From a virus: 21,711 nt of DNA. Made by a program: the position numbers and the translations under genes. The DNA is taken from the IMG/VR virus record IMGVR_UViG_3300031227_005578, positions 1 through 21,711 of that record. One strand, given 5' to 3'. Under the pieces are notes generated by a model, which worked only from the letters and a program-made list of their open reading frames with translations, had not been told where the DNA came from and made no database searches. Shown in pieces: positions 2,328-19,074 of this stretch; position 1 is the stretch's first letter; each line of letters begins with the position of its first letter.

Positions 2328-2420
2328 TTAAGCTCTAACATGACCACATCTTTCAACCTTGCCACTTAAAAGCCCATCATATATCGATTGTAGAGCCACA
2401 TTGACATCCCACATTCTCAT
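2328..2420 (-). CDS. Possible 30-aa ORF coupled to the methyltransferase
   Basis: ATG 2420-2418 overlaps the TGA of the DNA methyltransferase gene (ATGA), a typical translational coupling arrangement. It encodes 30 residues beginning MRMWDVNVALQSIYDGLLSG, with a plausible helical composition, and ends at TAA 2330-2328. Beyond this stop the frame stays readable towards the next gene, so a longer ancestor cut by a stop is possible. There is no independent ribosome site. Weakly supported. Confidence 0.35.
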   Translation of the reverse strand: MRMWDVNVALQSIYDGLLSGKVERCGHVRA

Positions 2421-3562
2421 TCATCAAACAATGTCCTATCTTTTTGCCAACTTTTTATGCGAGCCTTAGATATTTCTACATACTCTTTTTCTCTTTCTAT
2501 GCCTATGAAATCAAATCCCTCTAATTTACAAGCTATCCCCGTTGTGCCACTTCCCATAAATGGGTCTAAAACTATCCCATTTTTAGGTGTTATTAAACGA
2601 CATAGGTATTGCATTAACTTTATAGGTTTAACTGTTGGGTGGTTGTTCTTCCTTAATGTCTTTCCTCTTAAATAAGGGTTATCTATTTTCTTCTGTCTGC
2701 CATCATCTGTAATCTGTTCGTCTTTATCTAACCCCTTATTCCTCTCACTTTTTGATGCTTTGGCACAGTAGAAGAAGCGTTGTGGTTCTCCCATAATATC
2801 TACTACCTCATCACTTCCATCGTGGATTAGGTTTGCAGGGAAGCGACCTTGAACTTCTGTTGAACCTTCCTTTTTACCAGAATATAATCCTTTACCACTA
2901 TCAGTTCTTGTATCACAAGCAGTCATACCAGTTTCTTTATTACCAGAAAATTCATTTACTCTTGTTTCACTTCCAACCCTACACCCATCTATATTGATAC
3001 CACCAGTTCCGTGCTTTAAGACGTTCTGGGCTATTGTTTTCTCTGATAGAGGTTTGCGGGCTAATGTCCATAGTTCCATAGCTGGTTTAAGAGCTGTGCC
3101 CCAACCTTCGTGAGGTGATGAGCCTTTAGTATAAGTAAAATCGCCTTTTGTATCGTTTTGATTCCAACCATTATTATCATCATAGGGTTTTACATTTCTG
3201 TGCCTTTTACCTGTTGCTTCTCTCTCATTTCCCTGAAACCTATCTACTGCTTTACCTATATTTAAACTTTTAGGAAAACCCGAGCCATATACCCAACCCA
3301 CAATATCTCTTATCTCAAATCCTGCATCTTCTATATTAACTGCCATTCTATGTTGAGTTCTTGTTCCGCAGGCACACAATATATGTCCACCTGGCTTTAA
3401 AACTCTTAAACACTCTTTCCACAGCTCAATAGAGGGAACATCATAATCCCACTTCTTAGCCATAAATGATATGCCATAAGGCGGGTCTGTAACGATAGCG
3501 TCTACCGAACTGTCAGACAACTTCTTTAACTCAACCCCGCTATCTCCTAATATAAGCCTCAC
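2417..3562 (-). CDS. DNA methyltransferase (N6-adenine or N4-cytosine), beta class
   Basis: A 381-residue enzyme expected to transfer a methyl group from S-adenosylmethionine to an exocyclic amino group in DNA. Catalytic motif IV, DPPYG, is at residues 26-30 near the N-terminus, and the SAM-binding motif I, DPFMGSGTTG, is at 333-342 near the C-terminus. The order IV, target recognition region, I defines the beta class (COG0863-like). The centre (residues about 85-320) holds a large target region with GWVYGSGFPKSLNIGKAVDR, often seen in phage enzymes. GTG start after GGAGGT. No restriction nuclease is adjacent, so an orphan enzyme is likely, for protection against host restriction or for marking phage DNA. 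Whether A or C is methylated cannot be told from DPPY alone. Confidence 0.9.
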   Translation of the reverse strand: MRLILGDSGVELKKLSDSSVDAIVTDPPYGISFMAKKWDYDVPSIELWKECLRVLKPGGHILCACGTRTQHRMAVNIEDAGFEIRDIVGWVYGSGFPKSLNIGKAVDRFQGNEREATGKRHRNVKPYDDNNGWNQNDTKGDFTYTKGSSPHEGWGTALKPAMELWTLARKPLSEKTIAQNVLKHGTGGINIDGCRVGSETRVNEFSGNKETGMTACDTRTDSGKGLYSGKKEGSTEVQGRFPANLIHDGSDEVVDIMGEPQRFFYCAKASKSERNKGLDKDEQITDDGRQKKIDNPYLRGKTLRKNNHPTVKPIKLMQYLCRLITPKNGIVLDPFMGSGTTGIACKLEGFDFIGIEREKEYVEISKARIKSWQKDRTLFDE

Positions 3563-3833: not shown

Positions 3834-4631
3834 TTAAATCTTCCCCTTACCCCCTTCTAAAATATCCTTAAAGCTCAAAGTGGACTTTTCTTCCTTAAAC
3901 TTATCGTGTTCTTTTATATTAAGCTCCGCAAAGTAGTTAGGCAATTCCTTTTTAAGCACTTCCGATAAATAGCCCCAGGGGTTTTCAGCCTTGCTTTTAT
4001 GTAGAGCCTTGCCTCCCTTAATCATTAAATCAATCGGCGGATAATACCCCTTTAGCCTTTTAACCCTCTCTATGAAAGTAAAGATATTGAATTTTAAATT
4101 ATCATTAAGTTCTTTATGGATTAAAGCCAACTCTTGCTTTTGAGCCTGAGTGGGTGCAGGGAAAGGCTGTTTAGAGTTATCCACAGAAGCAGCCGAAGGC
4201 TTGTGTTTCTTTATATTAACTTTACTTAACTTAACTTTACTTAACTTAACTTTACTTAACTTAGGGGTGTCAGTGGTTGTCATTGGTATGCCATTAGACT
4301 TAGGGCATTCTCTCCTTCGTTCTCTATCGGCTCTAAATGTTTGAAAATCATTAAACTTAGTATATTGCTGATATAGTTTATTATTATCCTTATATAATGA
4401 GATTAACCCGGCCTTGCTTATTTCCACTAATGCAGTTTCAATGTTTTTTATGGTGATTTTCTTGTTTTTAGGTAGGACTTCTGTTTTAATATCTTCCGAA
4501 TCAGCCGTATAGCATCCGTAATCATCAAGGTATGGGAATGTCCATGTCCATACTATTTGGGATTTTAATGATAATTGATTTACTTTTTTTGATTGTGATA
4601 TTCTTCTTGATAACATTCTTCTGTTTGCCAT
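3834..4631 (-). CDS. Replisome organizer / replication initiation-like protein
   Basis: A 265-residue protein with AAGGAGCAATA before its ATG. The N-terminal 90 residues (ANRRMLSRRISQSKKVNQLS, then WTFPYLDDYGCYTADSEDIK) resemble the winged-helix N-domain of phage replisome organizers, which bind the replication origin. Residues about 125-145 are a low-complexity linker made of LSKVK copied three times from a 15-bp DNA repeat. The C-terminal half (about 165-250) is helical and may bind a helicase or loader, as in DnaD-like proteins. No ATPase motif is present, so it is not a helicase loader of the DnaC type. It sits beside nuclease, SSB-like and methyltransferase genes, which supports a replication role. 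The exact family is an inference. Confidence 0.7.
   Translation of the reverse strand: MANRRMLSRRISQSKKVNQLSLKSQIVWTWTFPYLDDYGCYTADSEDIKTEVLPKNKKITIKNIETALVEISKAGLISLYKDNNKLYQQYTKFNDFQTFRADRERRRECPKSNGIPMTTTDTPKLSKVKLSKVKLSKVNIKKHKPSAASVDNSKQPFPAPTQAQKQELALIHKELNDNLKFNIFTFIERVKRLKGYYPPIDLMIKGGKALHKSKAENPWGYLSEVLKKELPNYFAELNIKEHDKFKEEKSTLSFKDILEGGKGKI
4216..4260. repeat. Three tandem 15-bp repeats inside the replication gene
   Basis: The 15-mer TTAACTTTACTTAAC occurs three times without a mismatch at 4216-4230, 4231-4245 and 4246-4260, followed by a partial TTA. On the coding strand it encodes LSKVK three times in frame, in a linker between two domains. Identical copies indicate recent slippage. 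Because phage origins often lie inside the initiator gene as short direct repeats (iterons), it may also be a binding site for the encoded protein; this is an inference. Confidence 0.8.
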
Positions 4632-4640
4632 TATTGCTCC

Positions 4641-4816
4641 TTAAAACATACTTTCTTGGTTCTTTCTAAATAAATCACCCTGTATATCTTTTTTACTTTC
4701 GTTTAGAATATGAAGTCCTATTTTTGGTAATACGCAATTTCTTAAAATGGTTCTTTTGTTACTAATATTATAATCATTTTGCCTCCTATGCCAGCATATA
4801 AATTTAAGATTTTCAT
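4641..4816 (-). pseudogene. Remnant of a phage cytosine-type DNA methyltransferase with internal deletion
   Basis: The frame from ATG 4816-4814 reads MKILNLYAGIGG, the typical start and SAM-binding motif I of small phage C5-type DNA methyltransferases, then goes KM and stops at 4744-4742 after 24 codons. In another frame, the sequence down to TAA 4643-4641 reads TILRNCVLPKIGLHILNESK, then DIQGDLF, which looks like the extreme C-terminus of the same enzymes. Everything between (normally well over 100 residues, including the PC catalytic motif) is absent. The two ends are thus joined out of frame. A deletion in the phage, or an assembly collapse, would produce this. The family match comes from memory of such proteins, not from a search. 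Confidence 0.55.
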
Positions 4817-4817
4817 C

Positions 4818-5096
4818 TTAAAACAACACCTCTTTGTTATCCTCAACTAATGATTTACATTTGTGAATACTTAATCTCTTTAACTCTCTAACGTCTCTTA
4901 AAATTGTCTCTACACTCGCCCAGTGGTTCTCTATTTCAAGCACGGTCTTGCAACCTAAGAGTTGGAAGGTTCTGGCAATTATCTTGTTGGGTGAAGCGTC
5001 GGGGTCTTCCGCCAGAACGTCAAAAGCCTTTTGCCCCGCAGAGCTTATCTTTCTATTCAACCAGTATTTATTTCCTCTATACTTCACCCAACTCAT
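4818..5096 (-). CDS. Hypothetical protein, 92 aa
   Basis: Start ATG follows TAGGAGGTTAATT. The protein is short, Trp-containing and mostly helical. Residues about 18-75 (AGQKAFDVLAEDPDASPNKI, then ARTFQLLGCKTVLEIENHWA) could form a helix-turn-helix-like bundle, but no family was recognised. There is no signal or membrane segment. Its stop precedes the methyltransferase remnant's ATG by one base. Located among replication genes, so a regulatory or DNA-binding role is possible. Confidence 0.65.
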   Translation of the reverse strand: MSWVKYRGNKYWLNRKISSAGQKAFDVLAEDPDASPNKIIARTFQLLGCKTVLEIENHWASVETILRDVRELKRLSIHKCKSLVEDNKEVLF

Positions 5097-7494: not shown

Positions 7495-8289
7495 TTAGTA
7501 AACATTGTAACCCATTTGTCTTATGTTTTCTCTTTCAGTCAAGGTTAAGCTACTGAGGTCAAGTACACCTCCCACCTCTTTAGGCAAGACTAAACCCTTT
7601 GCCGAGGTCAAGCTACTGAGGTTAAGTACACCTCCCACCTCTTTAGGCAAGACTAAACCCTTTGCCGAGGTTAAGCTACTGAGGTTAAGTACACCTCCCA
7701 CCTCTTTAGGCAAGACTAAACCCTTTGCCGAGGTTAAGCTACTGAGGTCAAGCCAACCTCCCACCTTTTTAGGTAAAACCAAACCTTTTGCTGAGGTCAA
7801 GCTCCTGAGGTCAAGTACACCTCCCACCTCTTTAGGCAAGACTAAACCCTTTGCCGAGGTCAAGCCATTGAGGTCAAGCCAACCTCCCACCTTTTTAGGT
7901 AAAACCAAACCTTTTGCTGAGGTCAAGCTCCTGAGGTCAAGTACACCTCCCACCTCTTTAGGCAAGACTAAACCCTTTGCCGAGGTCAAGCTCCTGAGGT
8001 CAAGCCAACCTCTATATACGCTATCCCTACCTCTCTCTGTCATTGCCCAGTTAAAAAAACTAACAAAGGTTGGAAACTTACGCAAAAAACTTTCCTTATA
8101 TTCTTTTTTATTAACCCTATCATTATTATCAAACCTCAACTCCACCTCTCCCGATGGCAGATAATGCCCTTCTCTCCACACTTTCAAGTTGAGTTTTAAC
8201 TCCTCTTCCGTCTCTCCGTGAGAACTTAAATCAAAAATAGATATATCCATATTAAGTGGATTATGAAAAAAACTTGCAAATCTACACAT
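7495..8289 (-). CDS. Leucine-rich-like repeat solenoid protein
   Basis: A 264-residue protein, ATG 8289 after GGAGGAGGTTAGATA. The first 93 residues are an N-domain (MCRFASFFHNPLNMDISIFD, then HYLPSGEVELRFDNNDRV) with no recognised family. Residues about 94-250 consist of a 21-residue unit, LDLRSLTSAKGLVLPKEVGG with one further residue, repeated seven times plus partial copies at both ends; consensus leucines recur at fixed spacing as in leucine-rich-repeat or related beta solenoids. The last unit degrades and ends with LTERENIRQMGYNVY, a cap. No signal or membrane segment, so cytoplasmic. Such folds bind other proteins; target unknown. Near-identical repeats at DNA level point to recent expansion. 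Confidence 0.8.
   Translation of the reverse strand: MCRFASFFHNPLNMDISIFDLSSHGETEEELKLNLKVWREGHYLPSGEVELRFDNNDRVNKKEYKESFLRKFPTFVSFFNWAMTERGRDSVYRGWLDLRSLTSAKGLVLPKEVGGVLDLRSLTSAKGLVLPKKVGGWLDLNGLTSAKGLVLPKEVGGVLDLRSLTSAKGLVLPKKVGGWLDLSSLTSAKGLVLPKEVGGVLNLSSLTSAKGLVLPKEVGGVLNLSSLTSAKGLVLPKEVGGVLDLSSLTLTERENIRQMGYNVY
7541..8011. repeat. 63-bp tandem repeat array
   Basis: Seven full 63-bp units begin at 7541, 7604, 7667, 7730, 7793, 7856 and 7919, with a partial eighth at 7982-8011. The period is exactly 21 codons. Two sequence types occur: one with CTTTAGGCAAGACTAAACCC and one with TTTTAGGTAAAACCAAACC. They alternate from 7730 onward, giving a 126-bp higher-order repeat. The unit at 7793-7855 is identical to the one at 7919-7981. 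Confidence 0.95.
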
Positions 8290-8470: not shown

Positions 8471-9241
8471 TTATTTAAACTCCACAAGTTGAACATTATT
8501 AAAAGCGTTGACTCTAACTTTATTATAAACAGATAATATATCTTCCTGTCTTATCGTGACTGAAATTATTTTGTGGGGGTCTCCACCTGCAAACGCAATG
8601 GCTCTCTCGTAGGAAGTCCAATGCCAACCCTCACCACATTCTATTGCCTGACTTCTTTTAAGTTTTGATTTATCCCCCTTGCCAATTTTATATTGATATT
8701 TACCAGAAAAAATGTCTGTTAAATTTGGTCTAACTGATTTATAGAATGTTCCTGTGCCATTTTGCATTAACACTCCTGTCATTATAAAGATATTAAGTTC
8801 TGAAAATGTATCCTTGGAATTTTTATTGAAATTTTTTACTATCTCGGCATGGTAGCCTATCTTGGCATCGTCGCCTATCTCGGCATAGTCGCCTATCTTG
8901 GCATAGTCATCTATCTCGGCATAGTTGCCTATCTTGGCATCGTCGCCTATCTTGGCACGGTAGCCTATCTTGGCATAGTCATCTATCTTGGCATCGTCGC
9001 CTATCTCGGCATTGTCGCCTATCTCGGCATCGTTGCCTATCTCGGCAGAGTCGCCTATCTCGGCACGGTAGCCTATCTTGGCATCGTCGCCTATCTCGGC
9101 ACGGTCGCCTATCTCGGCATAGTCGCCTATCTTGGCAGAGGTAGAGATAACAATGTTGCGGTCTCTCAAAAAATCTTCAAATTCTTTATTTTCACTATTT
9201 ACTAATTTCCAATTATCATTAAACCAAAGATATATTTTCAT
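8471..9241 (-). CDS. Left-handed beta-helix (hexapeptide repeat) protein with C-terminal domain
   Basis: A 256-residue protein. ATG 9241 is chosen since AACAAGGGGGTGGAG lies directly before it; the longer GTG start upstream would read through that site. Residues about 35-135 hold sixteen successive hexapeptides of the type A-[EK]-I-G-D-x, fitting the [LIV]-G-x2-A-x rule of left-handed parallel beta-helices; three hexapeptides make one coil, so about five coils. There is no acyltransferase active-site histidine in the repeats. The C-terminal 100 residues (ECGEGWHWTSYERAIAFAGG, then HKIISVTIRQEDI) form a separate alpha/beta domain seen in other phage repeat proteins. Overlaps the upstream 39-aa ORF by ATGA. 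Binding or scaffolding role is inferred. Confidence 0.8.
   Translation of the reverse strand: MKIYLWFNDNWKLVNSENKEFEDFLRDRNIVISTSAKIGDYAEIGDRAEIGDDAKIGYRAEIGDSAEIGNDAEIGDNAEIGDDAKIDDYAKIGYRAKIGDDAKIGNYAEIDDYAKIGDYAEIGDDAKIGYHAEIVKNFNKNSKDTFSELNIFIMTGVLMQNGTGTFYKSVRPNLTDIFSGKYQYKIGKGDKSKLKRSQAIECGEGWHWTSYERAIAFAGGDPHKIISVTIRQEDILSVYNKVRVNAFNNVQLVEFK
8840..9139. repeat. 18-bp tandem repeat array
   Basis: Sixteen 18-bp units and a partial seventeenth, on the plus strand TATCTYGGCAnngTcgCC-like, start at 8840 and encode the hexapeptides of the beta-helix. Units differ mainly at the codon for the sixth residue and between Glu and Lys, so variation is concentrated at outward-facing positions. Confidence 0.9.
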
Positions 9242-9357
9242 CTCCACCCCCTTGTTTTCTGTCCGACCCCATCTTCCCAATTCATCTTGTCTTCTTCTGA
9301 CCACTCGCTTAAATCTAACGGATAGGTGTAATTGTCCTCGTCATAAAAGTTAGGCAT
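9238..9357 (-). CDS. Short acidic protein, 39 aa
   Basis: ATG 9357-9355 is preceded by GGGGAGGAAAAATAAA; stop TGA 9240-9238 overlaps the ATG of the beta-helix gene. The product (MPNFYDEDNYTYPLDLSEWS, then EEDKMNWEDGVGQ) is strongly acidic and aromatic. No family recognised. The ribosome site and coupling support it. Confidence 0.55.
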   Translation of the reverse strand: MPNFYDEDNYTYPLDLSEWSEEDKMNWEDGVGQKTRGWR

Positions 9358-9731: not shown

Positions 9732-10125
9732 TTAGTTCTCCTTAAATTGCTTATAATATTTTTCCCACTCACTAAACCCAACCTTTGAAAGTTTTTTAAA
9801 TATCGGTATAACCTTTTTATTGTATCGTTTTTTTATGCTTTCCCAGCAGAGTTTGTGAATTATTATTTGTCCTATAATGTCCCACTCAGTTGCGGTAAAA
9901 TATTTAATACATTGCTGTCTAATTATTTCTTGAAAGAATAAGTGAGAATTAAGATATTTTTTAGTACCCCCAAGGTTGGCACCCCTAAGGTTAACATTAC
10001 TAAGGTCAGCACCCCTAAGGTTGGCACCCCCTATTCTTTTCTAAGCAATCTTTAATGCTTTCATATTTACCACACAACAAAACCTTATCATTACCCCACC
10101 TTGATAATATTTTAATCTCTCTCAC
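9732..10125 (-). pseudogene. Pentapeptide-repeat protein interrupted by a +1 frameshift
   Basis: GTG 10125-10123 follows AAGGGGGTTAAT and reads MREIKILSRWGNDKVLLCGK, then KYESIKDCLEKN, and goes out of frame in a run of five G (plus-strand C at 10027-10031), ending soon at TAG. Dropping one G restores RGANLRGADLSNVNLRGANL, four to five pentapeptide repeats of the A(N/D)LxG type, and then a 70-residue basic C-terminus ending at TAA 9734-9732. The total length, 394 bases, is exactly one more than 131 codons. Pentapeptide proteins fold as right-handed quadrilateral beta-helices; some mimic DNA. Causes: sequencing error, true mutation or programmed slippage. The stop overlaps the ribosome site of the next gene. 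Confidence 0.7.
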
Positions 10126-10137
10126 ATTAACCCCCTT

Positions 10138-14584: not shown

Positions 14585-16093
14585 ATGAGAATGGTTGAAG
14601 ATAGTAAAAAGCTCATTGAGACAATGCAGTTGTTTGATAAGAACACGGGTGAGTATATACCTTTTAAGCTCTGGCAGAGACAAAGTGAACTGCTTGAGTT
14701 AATACATAGCGAGAAGAAGATAATACTCTTAAAGAAGCGTCAGGTTGCAGGCTCACAGCTTACAGGGGCAGACAGCCTGGCACAATGTATGCTCTTAGAT
14801 AACTTTCTCGTATTGGTTCTTTCTAAAACAGGTGATGATGCAAAGGAATACTTACGCAGGGTATCGGGTATGTATTACGCCTTGCCTAAAAGTGTCCGCC
14901 TTGCAAGCCCTCTTATCGCAGAAGAACACCCGATGGAGAAGATGGAGTTTAAGAACGGTTCTCGTATACTATCTCTTTCAGCCAGAAAGGGCGCAGGTTA
15001 TACGGCTGATAGGGTGATTATAGATGAGGCGGCTAAAATCAATACAAAGACCTCTCATATTACATTAGACGAAGTGTTAAAGAATGTTGAACCGGCTCTT
15101 GAAAAAGCGGGGGGGCAGCTTATATTGGTCTCTACTGCCGAAGGATATGGACAGTTTCAGCAATTATACGCTAAGGGTAAGACGGGAGAGACATCTTGGC
15201 GCTCTTTCTTCTTCTCTTGTTGGGACGACCCCACCTTTATTAAAGAGAAGAGAGACCAGTTGGTTATTGACCACGGTGAAGACCACGTCAATGAAAACTA
15301 TCCCAGAACCGATATAGAGGCGTTTTTAGTATCAGGGAATTGCAGGTTTAATATAACTTGCCTCAAGTCTATGCAGGAAATCTCTATGAAAGAGGGCGAG
15401 AGGTGTTATTTAAGCAAGGTTAAGAAGTCAATTATCTGCCAGAGAGACCCTAAAGGCATTGTTAGAATATTTAAACACCCTCAAAGGGGAGAGATTTTTA
15501 CATCGGGGTTTGATATTGCAGAAGGGCTTGAAACGGGAGATTATTCTACCGGACAGATATTAAATGCTAAGACATTAGAACAGGTGGCTGAATTACGTTG
15601 TCACTACGAACCTAACGTCTTTGCGGAAGAAATATCAAGGTTATGCACTTATTACCATAGCTGTATGGCAGGAATAGAACGCAATAATCACGGCATAGCG
15701 GTCTTGCAGGAGTTAAAGAAGATATATTTTAACCTCTATTATATGGAGAGTTTTGCCGAGAATACACAGGTTAGAAAGAGAAAGCTCGGCTGGATTACAA
15801 GCTCAAAGACCAAACCTTTAATGGTGGCAGAGGGCGATAAGATGATTAGAGAGGCGGAGGCATTGGTTCATTCTCCCGATTTAATCTCCGAACTAATGAC
15901 ATTTATCAGGTTTGCAGATGGCACAACGGGAGCTCAAGACGGCTCTCACGATGATTTAGTGATAGCATGGTTAATAGCTTTACAGGTGCGTAAGTATGTC
16001 CACGCCGAAGAACCTACCAGAGAAGAGATGCATAAAGAGTTAAAAGCCGATAGGGAATTTGAGAAACAGATTGAAGGTGTAAGGGGGTATTGA
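14585..16093 (+). CDS. terL: Terminase large subunit
   Basis: A 502-residue DNA-packaging motor protein. The N-terminal ATPase has LLKKRQVAGSQLTG at 48-61 (Walker A-like), VIIDEAA at 144-150 (Walker B with catalytic Glu) and STAEG at 183-187 (coupling motif). The C-terminal RNase H-fold nuclease shows GFDIAEG with Asp310, GIERNNHG with Glu365 and DGSHDDLVIAW with Asp456/457. It cuts concatemers and pumps DNA into the prohead through the portal encoded next. Start ATG 14585 has a weak ribosome site; a second ATG at 14591 is also possible. The stop overlaps the portal start (TGATG). Confidence 0.95.
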   Translation: MRMVEDSKKLIETMQLFDKNTGEYIPFKLWQRQSELLELIHSEKKIILLKKRQVAGSQLTGADSLAQCMLLDNFLVLVLSKTGDDAKEYLRRVSGMYYALPKSVRLASPLIAEEHPMEKMEFKNGSRILSLSARKGAGYTADRVIIDEAAKINTKTSHITLDEVLKNVEPALEKAGGQLILVSTAEGYGQFQQLYAKGKTGETSWRSFFFSCWDDPTFIKEKRDQLVIDHGEDHVNENYPRTDIEAFLVSGNCRFNITCLKSMQEISMKEGERCYLSKVKKSIICQRDPKGIVRIFKHPQRGEIFTSGFDIAEGLETGDYSTGQILNAKTLEQVAELRCHYEPNVFAEEISRLCTYYHSCMAGIERNNHGIAVLQELKKIYFNLYYMESFAENTQVRKRKLGWITSSKTKPLMVAEGDKMIREAEALVHSPDLISELMTFIRFADGTTGAQDGSHDDLVIAWLIALQVRKYVHAEEPTREEMHKELKADREFEKQIEGVRGY

Positions 16094-19074
16094 TGGCTGA
16101 ATTACTTAATCAGGAAGAACACGCTTTTAAAGAAGAGGATTTCACAGCTTTTATTTGTCAAACCATTAAAGAGGCGATAAGTGAGCGCAAGGCATTTGAC
16201 GCTTTAGTTGATACGTGGTGGAATGACTGGCGCGATATGAAGAATGAAAAGACTTTCCCTTTTAAAGGGTGTTATTCACCAGATACAGAAGCTTTAACCG
16301 ATAAGGGCTGGGTTGGAATTGCTGATATTAAATTAACAGATAAAGTTTATTCTCGTGCTTTAAATGGGCAAGCGGAGTATATGCCTGTTACTGACACCGT
16401 AAAAAACTATTATAAAGAAATGATAGAATTTACAAGCAGACCCGCCAATTTATTGGTATCACCAGACCACAATGTGTATCTTGATGATGTTGGTGTGGAT
16501 AAGATAAAATTTACTAAAGCTAATAAGTTATTAAAAATTAACGGAAAGCATTTAAGAATTCCACTAACCTCAACTTGGCAAGGTGAGAAAATTGATAAAA
16601 TATATGGATTTGATACTCACGATTGGATGAGTTTTCTTGGTTGGTATATTTCAGAAGGATATTCGAGAATTACTCCAAAGGGAAGGAAAGAAGGAAAGCG
16701 TATAGTTAAAAACGAAAGACAGACTTATATTGGTATCAGTCAATCCCAAAAAACAAATCCTGAAAAATGCAAACAACTTGAGAATTTATTTAATAGGATG
16801 AATTTAGAATATAAATATTATACGCAAGAATATCTCGTGAGAACAAAAGGTTTTCCTAAAGAAGCAATAAAAGAATTGAGAGAACTGGGAAAATGTTCTG
16901 ATAAGTTTATTCCTCAAAAATATCTTAATTTAGATAAAAAGTATTTGGTTTGCTTGTTGAATAGTTTAATAGATGGCGATGGTTGTATTTCCCATGGCGG
17001 AACAACTTATTATACTACGTCAAAACGATTAGCGGACAATATTCAGGAGTTAGTTCAAAAAGTAGGATTAAGAGCTGTTATTAGGAAGCGCGATAGAAGG
17101 GGCAAGGGTGGAACAATCAGAGGGAAGCCCTGCATAACTAAAAAAATAAGTTATGTGTTGGGAATATTATCTACACGAAATGCAAGGGTTGGAAGATTAA
17201 AAAGAAAAATCGTAAAATATAATAACTATGCTTATTGTGTAACTACTCCATATCATACTTTATATGTCCGCAGGAATGGAATTGCTTGTTGGTGTGGAAA
17301 TTGCAGTAATTTCTCTGTGCCTATCTCGTCTACTAAAGCCGATGCTGTTATCCCCCGCATAAGTGAGAGTATATTCGGCATTAACCCGCCTATAGAAGTT
17401 AAGGCTATGAATAAAACCGCGGCTCAACACAGAGATACAATTAAAGCATTTCTTAACTGGGATTTAGATACCCACCCTGAAATAGCCAAAGAGATATGGT
17501 TCTTTATTCAAAACGCTGTTTGGAGTGGCACGGGATTTACAAAGAGCTTTATGAATATAGAACGAGAGATGGAACAGAAAGATATTGTGGCTTACATTGT
17601 CAATGGAGAGATAGCCAGAGACCCGAATACAGGCAAGAGGATAGACGTTACACAGCATAATACAGACTTATTTACACAAGCAAGAGTGCCTTTTGAGATA
17701 AGAGAGGACATTGTAGAGAAAAAGCCAGCATGGAAGAAGTATAACCCTGATATTCTAACCCTTGATATTAAAGATGTATTATTCCCCTCAAGCTCGGAGT
17801 CTATTGAAGACGCTTGGGATAATTCCTTAATTGCGGTGCGTGTCTGGAGGACAAAGGATTACTTACGCAGACAGCTCAAGGACGATAAGAAAGAGCTTTA
17901 TAAACGCCTTGATAAGATAAAGATAAAGGGATTAGATGAAGAACAGGCTAAAGAGGGAGACGATAAGCGGAAAGAACAATTAGCTAAATTTGCCTCAAAG
18001 ACAAAGAAAGTAGAATGTTTTGAAGTCTATGTTAATTATGATGTTGACGGTGATGGGCTTGAAGAAAAGGTGGTTGCTATCGTTAATGTTCAGCAGGATT
18101 TATTGTTTGGCTGGGAGAAATATCCATACAAGCACGGCAGATGCCCGATTATTCCAGGATATATTAAACCTTTACATAATCACCCTTTCGGTGTAGGCAT
18201 ACCTGAAATGCTTTATGATACAAAGGGAGAGATAGACGCTGTTCATAATCAGCGTGTAGACAGAGGCTCATACTACAACGAACCTATCTTAATGCACACT
18301 AAAGCAAGCGGTTATAATCCGGCTATTCATAAAAGAGGTGTAGGCAGGCATTGGAGGTTAAAAGATATAAGCGAAGGTTCTATTAGATTTACCCAGCCTC
18401 CTAAATATGAAGGCGAGTCAAAAGAAGAAGAGATTATCTTACAAAACTATGCCCAGCAGAGAAGCAATGTCAGTGATTACAACGTCGGCTCAGAGTCGGA
18501 GACGAATAAAAAGCCTACTGCGACAGGCATTATGGCATTGATTAAAGAGAGCAATATCGGCTTTAGGAACTTTACCAAGTGGATTTCACTAAGCGTGGCG
18601 GAGATATTCAGACAGAGATTTGCATTATATCAGCAGTATTGGGGTCAGGCTTCCGATGAGGAAGTAAAGTCTTGGGTTGAGCAAATTCTTGATATACCGG
18701 ATAACCCTTTAAGTGTAGATAACTTTGACGCTATAAATCAGCAGTTTAACATTGTGATGACGGCTACAAAAGATGATATTAACGTTGAGCTTACAAAGGC
18801 ACAGCTTATCTACGATGTCTCTATGAACCACCCTCTTTTTCAGCAAGTGCCGACAAAGACAAGAGACGCTATTATAGAGCTGTTTAGAAAGGCTGGTATA
18901 CAAAACCCCGAGAGCCTTGTGCCGACAGTTGAGGAGATAAAGAATTGGCAGGCAGAGGTGCAGGCGGAAGCCTTACGTATGGTTGAGCAGGAGAAGGCTC
19001 AGGCTAATGTAGAAGAAGCGGAGAAAAAGGGATTTGATACTGAAATGTTAAGACAGGAGGCAAGCAAAGAATGA
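16093..19074 (+). CDS. Portal protein containing an in-frame intein
   Basis: Encodes 993 residues. ATG 16093 (TGATG coupling to terL, AAGGGGGT upstream) is favoured over TTG at 16090. After removal of the intein (residues 60-403) a portal of 649 residues remains. The join restores FPFKG-CSNFSVPISSTKAD, matching the conserved F/WP-x-G-x-SN site near the N-terminus of portals. The rest carries CPIIPGYIKPLHNHPFGVG (about 695-715), GEIDAVHNQRVD, and NVGSESETNKKPTATGIMAL, typical of the portal stem region, and a Gln/Glu/Ala-rich C-terminus. Twelve copies form the head vertex channel. Next to scaffold and capsid genes. Unspliced protein should be nonfunctional. Confidence 0.9.
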   Translation: MAELLNQEEHAFKEEDFTAFICQTIKEAISERKAFDALVDTWWNDWRDMKNEKTFPFKGCYSPDTEALTDKGWVGIADIKLTDKVYSRALNGQAEYMPVTDTVKNYYKEMIEFTSRPANLLVSPDHNVYLDDVGVDKIKFTKANKLLKINGKHLRIPLTSTWQGEKIDKIYGFDTHDWMSFLGWYISEGYSRITPKGRKEGKRIVKNERQTYIGISQSQKTNPEKCKQLENLFNRMNLEYKYYTQEYLVRTKGFPKEAIKELRELGKCSDKFIPQKYLNLDKKYLVCLLNSLIDGDGCISHGGTTYYTTSKRLADNIQELVQKVGLRAVIRKRDRRGKGGTIRGKPCITKKISYVLGILSTRNARVGRLKRKIVKYNNYAYCVTTPYHTLYVRRNGIACWCGNCSNFSVPISSTKADAVIPRISESIFGINPPIEVKAMNKTAAQHRDTIKAFLNWDLDTHPEIAKEIWFFIQNAVWSGTGFTKSFMNIEREMEQKDIVAYIVNGEIARDPNTGKRIDVTQHNTDLFTQARVPFEIREDIVEKKPAWKKYNPDILTLDIKDVLFPSSSESIEDAWDNSLIAVRVWRTKDYLRRQLKDDKKELYKRLDKIKIKGLDEEQAKEGDDKRKEQLAKFASKTKKVECFEVYVNYDVDGDGLEEKVVAIVNVQQDLLFGWEKYPYKHGRCPIIPGYIKPLHNHPFGVGIPEMLYDTKGEIDAVHNQRVDRGSYYNEPILMHTKASGYNPAIHKRGVGRHWRLKDISEGSIRFTQPPKYEGESKEEEIILQNYAQQRSNVSDYNVGSESETNKKPTATGIMALIKESNIGFRNFTKWISLSVAEIFRQRFALYQQYWGQASDEEVKSWVEQILDIPDNPLSVDNFDAINQQFNIVMTATKDDINVELTKAQLIYDVSMNHPLFQQVPTKTRDAIIELFRKAGIQNPESLVPTVEEIKNWQAEVQAEALRMVEQEKAQANVEEAEKKGFDTEMLRQEASKE
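16270..17301 (+). other. Intein with LAGLIDADG homing endonuclease, in the portal gene
   Basis: 344 residues, from Cys60 (block A, CYSPDTEALTDKGW) to Asn403, with Cys404 as the first residue of the C-extein. Block B is RPANLLVSPDHNVYL with the histidine (Ser replaces the usual Thr of TxxH). Blocks C and E of the endonuclease are LGWYISEG (182-189) and LNSLIDGDG (289-297); Glu and Asp of these two would bind metal. Blocks F and G are YCVTTPYHTLYVRRNG and ACWCGN, with Gly instead of the penultimate His, a known natural variant. It looks intact: no stops, all splicing residues present. Homing into an intein-less portal allele is expected. Its DNA looks more AT-rich than the exteins around it. 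Confidence 0.93.

Follow-up and report, generated by a model that had tools for sequence, protein, structure and literature searches.

Orphan DNA methyltransferases occur patchily among phages; in the lactococcal 936 group, for example, one type is present in 41 of 90 phages (PMC4759559). Vibrio phages 1.182.O and 1.082.O encode a small enzyme of 203 amino acids (AUR93085.1 and AUR86135.1; COG0270), which is intact and has both its PPC and its EN motif. Here, we analyzed a 21,711-nucleotide stretch of DNA, referred to as the window, which is the 21.7-kb record of an uncultivated virus of bacteria. Within it lies a short locus that shares both termini of the Vibrio phage enzyme (83% of 12 and 60–65% of 20 residues) but lacks the whole interior. 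We conclude that this locus is very probably a pseudogene remnant of a small (~213 amino acid) phage C5-cytosine DNA methyltransferase, left by an internal deletion. A literature search of titles and abstract openings returned no paper on a comparable methyltransferase remnant, which is no proof of absence in print, and PMC4190342 contains none of six terms that would denote a truncated or broken gene. The features of the locus and its surroundings are as follows.

4818–5096, minus strand: upstream gene of 92 amino acids that matches no family; one base lies between its stop and the ATG of the head
4742–4816, minus strand: head, the first 12 codons of a small C5 methyltransferase gene (motif I, MKILNLYAGIGG), after which 12 residues are out of frame and a stop follows
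4782–4787, minus strand: AGGAGG, part of the Ile-Gly-Gly codons of the head (end of ATA GGA GGC), not a breakpoint repeat
4777–4781, minus strand: deletion junction, whose precise position inside a run of A is ambiguous
4641–4778, minus strand: tail, the last ~45 codons of a small C5 methyltransferase gene (KRTILRNCVLPKIGLHILNESK...), in the −1 frame relative to the head, with no start codon of its own
3834–4631, minus strand: replication initiation protein of 265 amino acids, directly downstream (phrog_1408, E = 8.7e-09)
2417–3562, minus strand: intact beta-class N6/N4 amino-methyltransferase of 381 amino acids (PF01555, E = 1.7e-36)

The head begins with an ATG at 4816, reads MKILNLYAGIGG and then KMIIILVTKEPF, and ends at a stop at 4744–4742. 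The tail is read in the −1 frame; it opens with codon AAT at 4778, closes with the stop TAA at 4643–4641, and begins NDYNISNKRTILRNCVLPKIGLHILNESK... (in full, NDYNISNKRTILRNCVLPKIGLHILNESKKDIQGDLFRKNQESMF). The span of 4641–4816 given in the original prediction is thus exact, and the second fragment does follow a few codons on and in another frame, as had been described; the spacing between head and tail is 35 nt. From the stop of the previous gene up to the point where the tail becomes conserved, the tail frame contains no ATG, GTG, or TTG. The remnant can still encode a 24-residue peptide that lacks a catalytic site, and the tail is left without a start codon.

Motif I has the form LNLYAGIGGNR in this family. 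The window keeps MKILNLYAGIGG; the following two residues, N-R, which do not vary in 58 of 58 relatives, fall in the part removed at the junction. Two further blocks, PPC at residues 67–69 and EN at 110–111, are invariant in all 58 aligned relatives, and we take them to be motifs IV and VI of C5 enzymes. PPC is absent from both fragments of the window, as is EN(V) with its invariant E110 and N111. The C-terminal RN(C)V..GL(H)I block, on the other hand, is kept in the tail as RNCVLPKIGLHIL, identical to that of two intact IMG/VR relatives (L004 and L005). The window copy is not a single uninterrupted open frame, as its head and tail lie in different frames. Instead, it has both ends of an intact relative in order and on the same strand, with the middle absent and the frame broken, which is the pattern that defines an internal-deletion pseudogene. 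As a point against this reading, neither the Pfam nor the PHROG models were matched by the tail alone, and no PHROG model was matched by the right-frame head alone.

We searched 50,697 phage records with the head and the tail as separate protein queries. The tail matched two records and the head three, and the two in common were Vibrio phages 1.182.O and 1.082.O, with the head at the first codon and the tail near the last of the same annotated methyltransferase. One by one, the E values are weak (tail, 0.5 and 0.9; head, 3 and 3), but the coincidence of both matches in a single gene is telling. Against the relatives (the IMG/VR loci from the scan described next plus the two Vibrio phages), the best tail score was 67.0 bits, compared with a maximum of 23.9 over 60 shuffles; the best head score was 28.1 bits, compared with 20.4, also over 60 shuffles. 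A scan of IMG/VR with the tail reading gave eight confirmed loci, seven of which hold the whole gene while a contig end cuts the eighth. Head and tail were found together in 64 loci (89 rows examined, three of them repeats), in the same frame in every case and spaced 429–531 nt apart. Both pieces are the ends of one small phage cytosine methyltransferase, as originally proposed, and the protein searches and comparison with full-gene relatives that had been suggested as checks agree on this. A further point against is that even the nearest relative reaches only 73% identity across 40 residues of the tail. In genome_contigs, 90 stretches fit a tail pattern and none was confirmed, and megablast of the window against phages gave no match.

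A wider IMG/VR scan, which used words from the middle of the gene, yielded 153 confirmed loci, of which the best 80 were kept. Deleted copies are invisible to such a scan and could appear only among the eight loci sought by the tail. Once the window (L098) and a duplicate of L005 (L097) are taken out of the combined set of 88 rows, 86 distinct relatives remain, 58 of which entered the alignment used for invariant residues and for the fold model. The gene is one open frame in 84 of the 86, and the remaining two are cut by a contig end; three motifs established 56 of these open-frame calls, and one alignment covering residues 7–190 of 213 or more established the other 28. In a separate comparison of breakpoints, both ends were present in 61 loci; 60 of these are open throughout the intervening sequence, and one has a stop. 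The intact relatives are small enzymes of ~213 amino acids, and all four that were tested match both PF00145 (C-5 cytosine methylase, best E = 9.7e-12) and phrog_363 (DNA methyltransferase).

We predicted the structure of the intact relative L005. A model from only four sequences (pLDDT 38.4) was set aside, and the model from 58 sequences reached a pLDDT of 89.0 and a pTM of 0.86. It superposes on DNMT3A with a Z score of 14.7 and an R.M.S.D. of 3.2 over 192 residues (model residues 1–208), on M.HhaI with a Z score of 14.2 and an R.M.S.D. of 3.9 over 200 residues (1–213), and on M.HaeIII with a Z score of 13.8 and an R.M.S.D. of 3.7 over 196 residues (1–208). Foldseek's own top match was a DNMT2, over 128 columns. 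Since the superposition runs end to end, the head corresponds to the start and the tail to the end of the C5 methyltransferase fold, with the catalytic middle gone.

Compared with L004, L005, and L006, 490 nt are missing at the junction, and 496 nt compared with L007. The missing middle that had been noted therefore amounts to ~490 nt, about three quarters of the gene, and includes both catalytic motifs. Because 490 is not a multiple of three, the frame changes in the window. In the junction string GGAGGCAAAATGAT, head codons GGA GGC AA are joined to tail codons AAT GAT; even the nearest relatives are too distant for the junction to be placed to the exact base. The two breakpoints share 0–2 nt in the 16 closest relatives. 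AGGAGG had been placed directly at the junction and proposed as a possible microhomology. It is indeed close by (4787–4782), but it ends a few bases before the junction, belongs to the head's own codons, and has no similar word at the tail breakpoint of the relatives, so that a role as microhomology is not supported. One deletion event of about 490 nt, whose ends shared hardly any sequence or none, would have taken roughly codons 13 to 175 and moved the frame by one. Such a joint would fit end-joining or slippage, rather than recombination at AGGAGG.

The missing middle is not found elsewhere in the available sequence, namely the window and two further contigs, L012 and L013 (the first of which overlaps the window), which rules out relocation of the middle within these three. 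Insertion into an ancestral mini-gene is likewise rejected, as the interior makes up the core of the PF00145 match, and the whole gene stands in 84 of 86 relatives.

The remnant is a clean scar of the loss of a phage DNA-modification gene, set between the stop codon of one neighbor and the ribosome-binding site of the next. The AAGGAG of the replication initiation gene overlaps the tail stop, five bases before the ATG of that gene. The deletion was presumably tolerated because the phage had ceased to need methylation, and both ends presumably survive because the stop of the previous gene and the ribosome-binding site of the replication gene lie within or next to them. The survival of exactly these two ends may reflect selection to keep flanking gene signals. 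An imperfect 22-nt direct repeat (73%), at 4640–4661 and 4817–4838, brackets the remnant exactly; both copies sit where a gene ends and contain TTTTAAG when read on the minus strand, and two-copy repeats this weak often arise by chance.

No relatives of the 92-amino-acid upstream gene, of the replication gene, or of the exonuclease gene were found in viral_contigs, so that a close sibling carrying the gene intact at this position was not encountered, which also counts against the remnant reading. We also scanned nine adjoining proteins for the neighbors of the intact gene in seven relatives. Two have a replication-type neighbor, a DnaD-like helicase loader in L028 (7e-21) and a weak O-like match in L022 (4.7e-04). 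Among the others, an endonuclease adjoins the gene in two and a head-tail adaptor in one, and two gave no match.

Among the alternatives, the one that survives best is a narrower form of the remnant reading and compatible with it: most phages of this species keep the gene and the contig represents a deleted minority, or the reverse. The tail is still open over 45 codons, with no stop arisen, and 18 consecutive residues (LRNCVLPKIGLHILNESK) are unchanged relative to L004 and L005, so the deletion may be young. The patchy distribution of orphan methyltransferases in phages, as seen in the lactococcal 936 group (PMC4759559), points the same way. However, no intact version of this very gene was found in viral_contigs, where the nearest tail is 73% identical, and we regard a population variant as possible but on balance unlikely.

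We compared 29 tail codons of the window with those of L004–L007. Against L004, there are 12 synonymous and 6 amino-acid-changing differences; against L005, 9 and 7; against L006, 8 and 10; and against L007, 6 and 10. Among the four relatives themselves, the counts range from 12 synonymous and 1 changed up to 12 and 9. Amino acid changes are somewhat more numerous in the window, mostly in the first tail residues. For most of its history, the tail has been evolving as coding sequence, and on that scale the loss is probably recent, as judged from a short stretch only.

A second alternative is that the gene is intact in the living phage and that the contig skips its middle through an assembly artifact or a chimeric read. 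The window is the record of an uncultivated virus, and no independent contig spans the junction: the junction 25-mer has no exact match in viral_contigs, a search in which near-identical records may be hidden, and L012 begins only at window position 7741. However, no word of at least 11 nt in the 41-nt junction stretch is repeated in the window, and the breakpoints share next to nothing, as above. A k-mer assembler would therefore have nothing to collapse on, and the junction words would come from the reads. Furthermore, L012 is a separate contig of the same species and agrees with the window at 99.5% over 13,992 nt, which argues that the assembly is sound elsewhere. The collapsed assembly that the original prediction allowed for is thus improbable, with the lack of a second contig across the junction as the point in its favor, and we infer that the deletion arose in the phage.

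Other genes of the window also drew our attention. A pentapeptide-repeat gene at 9782–10137 on the minus strand, with a relative at L004:25–261 (65% DNA identity), appears frameshifted, a five-G run at 10031–10027 separating its N-terminal frame (REIKILSRWGNDKVLLCGKYESIKDCLEKNRG) from its repeat frame (GANLRGADLSNVNLRGANLGG). L012 is identical to the window here over 500 of 500 nt; therefore, broken genes of this phage are not limited to one assembly. Genes at 7495–8289 and 8471–9304 contain short tandem repeats with units like SSLTSAKGLVLPKEVGGVLDL and AEIGDxAKIG. The start of L012 falls inside the first of these, and the repeat probably broke the assembly of that contig. A portal-like frame of 994 amino acids (16090–19074) seems to hold an intein at about residues 61–404 (CYSPDTEALTDKGW ... 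CGNC). Its homology to L015 is interrupted by the candidate intein and resumes at residue 393; the portal and intein labels come from reading the sequence by eye.

It is very doubtful that head and tail still yield one small protein through ribosomal frameshifting at AGGAGGCAAAATG. The tail frame is open for 45 codons and a Shine-Dalgarno-like AGGAGG is located where the frame would change, but that word is accounted for by the head codons, the catalytic motifs are lost, no classical slippery heptamer was seen by reading, the region folds no better than its shuffles (z = −0.23), and the junction is in no other record of viral_contigs. Just as implausible is a role of the scar as a newly formed regulatory element or leader peptide acting on replication, based on AGGAGG-N4-ATG directly upstream of the replication initiation gene and a promoter-like pair made by the junction (4794–4767, minus strand; CTGGCA in the head, 16 nt, TATAAT in the tail; 10 of 12 positions), as such pairs occur in the region at chance level (11 found, 11.1 expected). 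An RNA element was also considered and rejected, with no Rfam or tRNA match in the window and no unusual folding.

The beta-class methyltransferase was correctly described as kept. It is intact and has the beta order of motifs, with DPPY (motif IV) at residue 26 before the Gly-rich motif I, DPFMGSG, at 333. It does lie downstream, though its start is 1.08 kb past the end of the remnant, rather than the 1.2 kb first given. The enzyme is common in viral contigs, with 284 confirmed stretches, and none of the best 80 loci has a small C5 gene in flanks of up to 5 kb. A single modification system formed by the two enzymes is therefore unsupported. Of the C5 loci, one (L051) lies alongside a 42% relative of this beta-class methyltransferase. 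L074 combines an intact small C5 methyltransferase with several adjacent stretches similar to the beta enzyme, which points to a row of more than one methyltransferase. The small C5 and beta enzymes are occasional neighbors and not a fixed system.

The remnant is an ordinary broken gene of a known enzyme family, and such gene loss is expected in phages. If the host and sister phages were known, it could show which host restriction pressure relaxed. The predicted L005 fold superposes end to end on DNMT3A, M.HhaI, and M.HaeIII (Z scores of 13.8–14.7); these chains are 267–327 residues long, compared with 213 in the phage relatives, and the window keeps the ends only. L004–L007 resemble the window in the tail (69–76% identical in protein and 76–85% in DNA) and in 10–11 of the 12 head residues, but each is one open frame of ~213–237 amino acids with a head-to-tail spacing 490–496 nt longer. 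Finally, according to two reports (PMC4759559, PMC4190342), the orphan methyltransferases of lactococcal 936 phages are likewise phage modification genes of patchy occurrence, but unlike the remnant described here, those tested are functional.
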